64,000 bases of DNA from Gammaproteobacteria bacterium (GTDB lineage: Bacteria; Pseudomonadota; Gammaproteobacteria; Enterobacterales; Aeromonadaceae): contig JAAEZO010000001.1 of NCBI GenBank assembly GCA_018222825.1, positions 1 through 64,000 of the forward strand, in the 5' to 3' direction. The position numbers and the translations under genes were made by a program. Shown one piece after another: positions 61,748 through 64,000 of the stretch (position 1 is its first letter; every line of letters starts with the position of its first letter). A model generated the notes under the pieces. That model was not told the origin of the DNA and searched no databases. It saw nothing but the letters and a program-made list of their open reading frames with translations.

Positions 61748-61957
61748 GAAATGTCTCCATTTGCCTGAGTATAGCCACCCCGGCGGCTGCGGCTTTCTGG
61801 CTTTTTTATAGCCACTTGCCGCTGACAGCATAAAATAACCGATTTTTGCGCACTATCAGGCTTTGCAAGGCGGCCCGGCCTTGGTAAGGTGAAAGTGGTT
61901 GCGTAAGAAAGAAATAACATGATGTCAAATATGGCGCTGTTTTTCTTTTTATTTGGT

Positions 61958-61975
61958 TGTAATGAATTGTTTACA
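61958..61975. promoter_or_regulatory. TyrR box upstream of aroF
   Basis: TGTAAT-GAATTG-TTTACA, one mismatch to TGTAAA-N6-TTTACA. Confidence 0.8.
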
Positions 61976-61990
61976 AGTGAGGATGTCATC

Positions 61991-63061
61991 ATGCAGAAAG
62001 ACACACTGAATAATATCCATATTCGATCCGAGAAGGTCATGATTACCCCGGCAGAGCTGAAAGCCAAGTTGCCTATCTCCGAGCAGGCGCTGTCGTACAT
62101 CGGCCAGGCCCGGCACACCATTTCCGATATTATTCAGCGCAAGGATCACCGCCTGCTGGTGATCTGCGGTCCCTGTTCCATTCACGATATCGACGCAGCC
62201 AAAGAGTACGCAACCCGCCTCAAAAAACTGCATGATGAATACAGTGACAGCCTTTATATCGTGATGCGCGTCTATTTCGAGAAGCCGCGCACCACCGTCG
62301 GTTGGAAAGGCTTTATCAACGATCCTCACCTGGACGGCACTTTCGATATAGAGCAGGGACTGCACAAGGCCCGCGAGCTGCTGTGCTGGCTGGCCGAGCT
62401 GGAACTGCCGCTGGCCACCGAAGCGCTGGATCCGATCAGCCCCCAGTATCTGGCCGAGCTGTTTTCCTGGTCGGCCATCGGTGCCCGTACCACCGAATCC
62501 CAGACACACAGAGAGATGGCTTCCGGCCTGTCGATGCCGGTCGGCTTCAAGAACGGTACCGACGGTAACCTGGGCACCGCCATCAATGCGCTGAAGGCGG
62601 CGGCAGAGTCCCATGCCTTCATGGGCATCAATCAGGAAGGGCAGGTCGCTCTGCTGGTCACTCAGGGTAACCCGGACGGCCATGTGATACTGCGTGGCGG
62701 CAAGCACCCGAACTATGACTCGGTCAATGTCTCGCTGGCCGAAAAGGCGATGGTGACGGCCGGCCTGTCGCCCAGCCTGGTGGTGGACTGTAGTCATGGC
62801 AACTCCAACAAGGATTACAGCCTGCAGCCATTGGTGACCGAGAACGTGGTACATCAGATTCAGGAAGGCAACCAGTCCATTCTCGGTATCATGCTGGAGT
62901 CGCATCTGCATGAAGGTAACCAGTCCAGTGAACAGCCGCGCAGCGAGATGCGCTACGGGGTATCGATTACCGATGCCTGTATCGACTGGGACACCACCGC
63001 CGAGCTGCTCAAACGTTGTCACCAGCAGTTGGCCGCGCCCTTGAAGGCCCGACTGGGCTGA
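61991..63061 (+). CDS. aroF: 3-deoxy-7-phosphoheptulonate (DAHP) synthase, AroF-type
   Basis: LLVICGPCSIHDIDAAKEYA; VVDCSHGNSNKDY; upstream of tyrA. Start 61991 (MQKDTLNN). Confidence 0.95.
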   Translation: MQKDTLNNIHIRSEKVMITPAELKAKLPISEQALSYIGQARHTISDIIQRKDHRLLVICGPCSIHDIDAAKEYATRLKKLHDEYSDSLYIVMRVYFEKPRTTVGWKGFINDPHLDGTFDIEQGLHKARELLCWLAELELPLATEALDPISPQYLAELFSWSAIGARTTESQTHREMASGLSMPVGFKNGTDGNLGTAINALKAAAESHAFMGINQEGQVALLVTQGNPDGHVILRGGKHPNYDSVNVSLAEKAMVTAGLSPSLVVDCSHGNSNKDYSLQPLVTENVVHQIQEGNQSILGIMLESHLHEGNQSSEQPRSEMRYGVSITDACIDWDTTAELLKRCHQQLAAPLKARLG

Positions 63062-63074
63062 GGGTAGGACCTTT

Positions 63075-63140
63075 GCGGCTACTCTCTATATTGAATAGAG
63101 CCGCCTGACGCTGCGGGGCGACTGTCCCCGCCGGCGGTTC
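63075..63140 (+). promoter_or_regulatory. Overlapping alternative hairpins in aroF-tyrA intergenic region
   Basis: GCGGCT(63075-80)/AGCCGC(63099-104) competes with GAGCCGCC(63098-105)/GGCGGTTC(63133-140), which encloses GCGGGG/CCCCGC (63113-118/63126-131). Confidence 0.6.
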
Positions 63141-63153
63141 ACAGGCATAATAG

Positions 63154-63184
63154 AGCACCGAGTCCGGGAAGGGCCGGTGCTTTT
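63154..63184 (+). terminator. Terminator-like hairpin upstream of tyrA (possible attenuator)
   Basis: AGCACCG...CGGTGCT followed by TTT G. Confidence 0.55.
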
Positions 63185-63202
63185 GTAATTGGGATGGGAC
63201 CA

Positions 63203-64000
63203 ATGGTAGATGAATTAGCTGTCCTGCGGGATCAGATAGACGAAGTTGACCAGCAACTGGTTGAACTGTTTGCCCGCCGCCTGAAACTGGTGGCGGGTGT
63301 AGGGGAAGTCAAGAGCCGCCAGGGGGTGCCGATTTATGCCCCCGACCGTGAAGCAGCCATGTTGGCCCGCCGCCGGGCCGAAGCCGAGGCGCGGGGCGTG
63401 CCGCCAGACTTGATTGAAGACGTGTTGCGCCGCGCCATGCGCGAGTCGTATGCCAGCGAAAAAGACACCGGCTTCAAGTGCATGAACCCCAGCCTGGGCA
63501 AGGCGGTGGTGATCGGCGGTGCCGGTCAGCTGGGTGGCCTGTTTGCACATCTGCTGACCCTGTCCGGTTACCCGGTCGAGATCCTGGAAAAAGACGACTG
63601 GAATAGGGCCGACCAGCTGCTGGCCGGCGCGGGCCTGGTGGTGGTGGCGGTACCCATCGATCAGACAGTCGCGGTGATCGAGCAACTGCCTCGCCTGGCC
63701 GACGACTGCCTGCTGGTCGACTTGACCAGTATCAAGGCCGAGCCGCTGGCCGCCATGTTGCAGGTGCACACCGGTCCCGTACTGGGGCTGCACCCCATGT
63801 TCGGGCCCGATGTCTCCAGCCTGGCCAAGCAGGTGATTATTTACAGCGAAGGCCGTGGCGCCGAGCAGTATGAATGGCTGCTGGCCCAGATGCGTATCTG
63901 GGGCGCACGTCTGCAGGCGGTGAGTGCCGACGAGCACGACAAGGCCATGAGCTTGGTCCAGGCCCTGCGCCACTTCACCAGCTTTGCCTACGGTGCTCAC
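63203..64000 (+). CDS. tyrA: TyrA chorismate mutase/prephenate dehydrogenase, partial (runs off window)
   Basis: [78 protein letters not shown]. Not in the ORF track because no stop lies in the window. Confidence 0.96.

Follow-up and report, generated by a model that had tools for sequence, protein, structure and literature searches.

A predicted internal tyrA promoter overlapping a conserved hairpin in the aroF-tyrA spacer of an Oceanisphaera-like bacterium

We analysed the 141-nt spacer between aroF and tyrA in the window (the whole stretch of 64,000 nt studied here) and find in it a probable internal sigma70 promoter of tyrA, laid over a conserved hairpin, rather than a metabolite switch. 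The aroF-tyrA spacer is a real, conserved regulatory spacer, and its element is of an ordinary kind. Conservation supports the promoter step well, and it is from conservation that we infer promoter activity and the start site. The role of the hairpin is likewise a prediction and may differ by lineage.

The source genome is that of an Oceanisphaera-like marine bacterium of the Aeromonadaceae, and the same genus group includes Oceanisphaera arctica (AroF identity 96%), Zobellella endophytica and Oceanimonas species. Our genus sample comprised 22 members; Tolumonas, a third genus and Aeromonas served as further genera. The three closest relatives (L002-L004) have an AroF identity of 96-97%. The genes and signals that frame the spacer are the following:

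61958..61975, + strand: TyrR-like box TGTAATGAATTGTTTACA upstream of aroF (operon promoter control), from its match to TGTAAAN6TTTACA
61991..63061, + strand: aroF, DAHP synthase (tyrosine-type), an open reading frame matching Pfam DAHP_synth_1 (E 3.3e-93)
63191..63194, + strand: probable tyrA Shine-Dalgarno sequence GGGA, 8 nt before the ATG, from sequence inspection; the distance is kept in most genus members
63203..64000, + strand, continuing past the window end: tyrA, chorismate mutase/prephenate dehydrogenase (Pfam CM_2 and PDH_N), start by comparison of relatives

The start of tyrA is most likely 63203 (ATGGTAGATGAA, MVDELA) rather than 63194: in L003 and L008 the upstream ATG is either missing or in another frame. 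The TyrR-like box is the sole match to its consensus with a single mismatch within the 64-kb window. Eight relatives also have such a box 32-33 nt before the aroF start, and it was not found in three other relatives with a readable aroF start. None of the 30 aroF-tyrA spacers that we checked contained a TyrR box. We also observed an open frame at 61919-61990 that enters aroF in frame (MMSNMALFFFLFGCNELFTSEDVI), is Phe-rich and overlaps the TyrR box; it is probably not translated and could mislead start calling. Just past the window pheA lies on the minus strand (L187:527-2407, 626 aa), convergent with tyrA, and its product carries a long C-terminal stretch after the chorismate mutase and prephenate dehydratase domains for which there was no Pfam match.

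The predicted sigma70-type promoter in the spacer reads CTGTCC-N18-CATAAT and spans 63122-63151:

63122..63127, + strand: -35 hexamer CTGTCC of the predicted internal tyrA promoter (TTGTCA in several relatives), from conservation of the TGTC columns and the 18-bp spacing
63146..63151, + strand: -10 hexamer CATAAT of the predicted internal tyrA promoter; CATAAT in 21 of 22 genus members and CATAAA in one, and also present in two further genera

When the 22 genus spacers are anchored on CATAAT, TGTC occurs at -23 to -20 and GG directly before CATAAT, and the sequence between and upstream of these conserved columns has diverged. On a species tree built from the aroF+tyrA coding sequence the columns of TGTC and GGCATAAT underwent 0-2 changes, compared to a background median of 8. 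The hexamers can be written as YTGTCN-N18-CATAAT; their distance falls within the 16-18 bp usual for sigma70 and they are conserved above background. The spacing itself is equally distinctive: across the genus the sequence at 18 bp has 3.64 of 6 matches to TTGACA, compared to 0.3-2.3 at other spacings. With a weight matrix used for ranking only, the promoter position was the top-scoring one of the spacer in 19 of the 22 genus members. Several relatives show TTGTCA-N18-CATAAT with 10 of 12 consensus bases. The copy in the window is weak (8 of 12 consensus bases), ranked third in its own spacer and was not listed by a consensus scan for promoters; matches to both hexamers are poor in L008 and L048. 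Similarity among close species is in part due to shared descent.

The same spacing recurs in Tolumonas, the third genus and some Aeromonas, where the -35 hexamer (TCGACT or TCGACG) mostly lies within the last aroF codons. In these other genera we counted 3.25 of 6 matches to TTGACA at 18 bp and 0.4-2.9 elsewhere (the next best spacing reached 2.9, most were below 2). For Tolumonas and the third genus the hexamer counts for little by itself, since it coincides with conserved aroF codons. The aroF stop is found 5, 8 or 14 nt before the -10 hexamer while N18 stays constant, and a constant N18 with a shifting stop is what a promoter would predict and what coding constraint alone would not. In L010 there is one unit at the aroF end and a second one downstream, that is two promoter and hairpin units with different hairpins, and the unit seems to have been duplicated there. 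A separate observation concerns L022, whose spacer contains three tandem copies of the promoter region.

The first-pass annotation had overlooked this promoter and had pointed to a terminator-like hairpin just before tyrA. The hairpin proved to be real, strong and maintained in evolution:

63153..63182, + strand: conserved hairpin with arms 63153-63160/63175-63182 and inner stem 63162-63165/63171-63174; z about -4, pairing kept across clades
63181..63184, + strand: short U-run after the hairpin (weak terminator signature), TTTTG in the window and U5-U7 in some relatives

By itself the hairpin (AGCACCG at 63154-63160 pairing with CGGTGCT at 63175-63181, followed by TTTT) folds well beyond chance, with a z of about -4, and each of the three closest relatives retains 7 of its 7 pairs. 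Its sequence varies between clades and the pairing is maintained; we took the pairs from each sequence's own fold, so the pairing count is descriptive. Across the 34 sequences that we folded, drawn from four genera, the 5' arm invariably starts 1-6 nt after the -10 hexamer, and in the window the expected start site, near 63156-63159, falls within the hairpin. The assembly (~85% complete) contains one copy of the hairpin unit, on which ground we rejected a mobile or repeated element. Within the otherwise highly conserved hairpin of the window type, the bulged base 63161 has changed ~10 times on the tree, far above its neighbours.

The U-tract has a patchy distribution. It is present in the window type, Tolumonas, the third genus, L010, L021 and L022, and is missing in seven genus members (L005, L007, L012, L014, L015, L018 and L019) and in the Aeromonas spacers examined. 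The combination of a GC-rich hairpin and a U-tract is found in the window with a weak U4 and in strong form in Tolumonas, where the tract reaches U7 as it does in L037 and L010. Since part of the family lacks the U-tract, termination would not be universal. These patterns bear on a simpler explanation, in which the hairpin acts solely as a partial intrinsic terminator, keeping tyrA below aroF, and CATAAT is not a working promoter. The hairpin with its U-run in the window and the U7 tracts fit such a terminator, but it leaves unexplained the genus members and Aeromonas spacers that keep the hairpin without a U-tract. Furthermore, the -35 and -10 columns are under more constraint on the species tree than the hairpin, and the spacing of exactly 18 bp extends across genera. 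We consider this explanation unlikely.

An internal transcript would retain part of the hairpin, and we compared folds before and after cutting at the expected start site. The window fold drops from -20.8 to -9.7 kcal/mol when cut at +7 after the -10 hexamer, and in the third genus a fold of about -18 kcal/mol is reduced to about -4 to -5 kcal/mol. In the clade without the U-tract -9 to -24 kcal/mol are left for starts at +6/+7. An internal promoter could be combined with a hairpin that is solely a stabiliser of the mRNA 5' end and has no termination role, similar to the 5'-terminal stabilising stem-loops of ompA and papA (PMC3997798). In favour of such a stabiliser, the hairpin borders on the expected start site in every species, the clade lacking the U-tract would have most of it within the transcript, and it is known that a hairpin at the 5' end can hinder RppH and stabilise the mRNA (PMC3997798). 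As in ompA and papA, the hairpin is located at the predicted mRNA 5' end upstream of the Shine-Dalgarno sequence, and its position relative to the -10 hexamer fits. However, the outer arm would be located upstream of the start in the window type, in Tolumonas and in the third genus, and a U-tract follows there; unlike the stem-loops of ompA and papA, some tyrA hairpins thus bear a terminator-like U-tract, and the start site is a predicted one. A purely stabilising role is quite improbable in our judgement.

The most likely reading is an internal promoter overlapping a hairpin whose role may change with the lineage. The aroF-tyrA operon would also be transcribed from the aroF promoter, which bears the TyrR box, and the internal promoter would give basal tyrA mRNA independent of tyrosine and TyrR because it has no TyrR box. 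Part of the 5' arm is upstream of the expected start site, so that only RNA reading through from aroF would form the complete hairpin. On this RNA it could act as a weak terminator, a pause or a 3'-end barrier that uncouples tyrA from aroF, and it could protect the aroF 3' end. Internally initiated RNA would begin inside the hairpin and keep a shorter 5' hairpin, which may be protective. In the clade without the U-tract more of the hairpin would stay in the internal transcript and would form a 5' cap. A bolder version is that the promoter laid over the 5' arm of the terminator constitutes a one-way insulator kept across several Aeromonadaceae genera, with the terminator acting on read-through RNA only and tyrA escaping control by TyrR and aroF; this is conceivable, though we hold it doubtful.

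A similar layout is known from E. coli ampC, which has its promoter in frdD, followed by an attenuator (PMC11796351). In both cases the downstream gene has its promoter at or within the upstream gene's end, and a hairpin follows at once, before the start codon; the likeness refers to the layout alone. The ampC attenuator doubles as the frd terminator. Unlike ampC and frd, aroF and tyrA share one pathway and are presumably co-transcribed. The tyrA hairpin is also nearer to the -10 box and in part of the family lacks a U-tract, and its termination role is predicted. The E. coli aroF-tyrA operon (PMC11878033, PMC5343134) has the same gene order and a TyrR-controlled aroF promoter, and these two descriptions mention no internal tyrA promoter or spacer hairpin. 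Searches of E. coli genomes gave distant matches only (~70% identity). In more distant relatives outside the family the spacers are often ~10-45 nt long and contain no such hairpin.

The first-pass annotation had placed the hairpin in a switch built from alternative pairings. All four pairings that it listed are present in the window: GCGGCT (63075-63080) with AGCCGC (63099-63104), referred to as helix 1, GAGCCGCC (63098-63105) with GGCGGTTC (63133-63140), the GC stem GCGGGG (63113-63118) with CCCCGC (63126-63131), and the last hairpin described above. As a whole, the 141-nt spacer folds only weakly beyond chance (-57.9 kcal/mol, z -1.69; 13 of 200 shuffles fold equally well). In the three closest relatives helix 1 retains 3, 5 and 4 of its 6 pairs and the GC stem 3, 5 and 5 of 6; the GAGCCGCC/GGCGGTTC helix retains 7, 8 and 7 of 8, with no compensating changes. 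Eight genus members have spacers of only ~78-90 nt, in which the upstream half is entirely missing. The predicted start site lies downstream of all of helix 1, and the -35 hexamer falls in the loop and 3' arm of the GC stem, so both helices would be missing from a transcript of the internal promoter.

A riboswitch-like attenuator that senses a ligand or factor through mutually exclusive pairings is thus very improbable: overlapping complementary segments do occur in the window and the GAGCCGCC/GGCGGTTC helix is largely kept in L002-L004, but sister species have lost pairs of helix 1 and of the GC stem with no compensating changes, the region is absent from the short-spacer species, the Rfam search of the spacer matched no described RNA family, and the expected start site is too close to the hairpin to leave space for an aptamer. 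We rejected the switch after comparing the window with L002-L004 and the other genus members, a comparison in which no conserved, covarying and mutually exclusive helices emerged. Covariation had been named beforehand as a test, and none was found for the switch helices. The conservation expected of the spacer does not extend to the switch part either, and what stands of the earlier proposal is the conserved hairpin together with the absence of a leader peptide, which we could confirm. Attenuation has been hypothesised for E. coli aroF (Camakaris 1980, cited in PMC8632094 and PMC2659441); in the form in which these papers cite it, the hypothesis concerns the region upstream of aroF and not the aroF-tyrA spacer.

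An internal tyrA promoter with a hairpin is ordinary in kind and apparently undescribed at this place; our literature search for an internal tyrA promoter returned nothing specific. If the reading is true, tyrA in this family is partly released from the tyrosine repression of the aroF promoter, and therefore the first and the branch-point steps of tyrosine synthesis could be set separately. It would also represent a compact means of laying a promoter over a terminator arm. For the reading of genomes, the case illustrates how a GC-rich spacer with overlapping complementary segments can mimic a switch where the conserved feature is a promoter. The finding is a modest regulatory detail and it is testable.

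Two further observations were made in Aeromonas. In 31 spacers of this genus (the loci are among L023-L030, L032, L033 and L071-L096) the aroF stop is followed by a near-invariant TAAGCCGTGGTATCTTGTC, which resembles an extended -10 element and may be another promoter. Many Aeromonas spacers of the same set of loci carry two successive hairpins.
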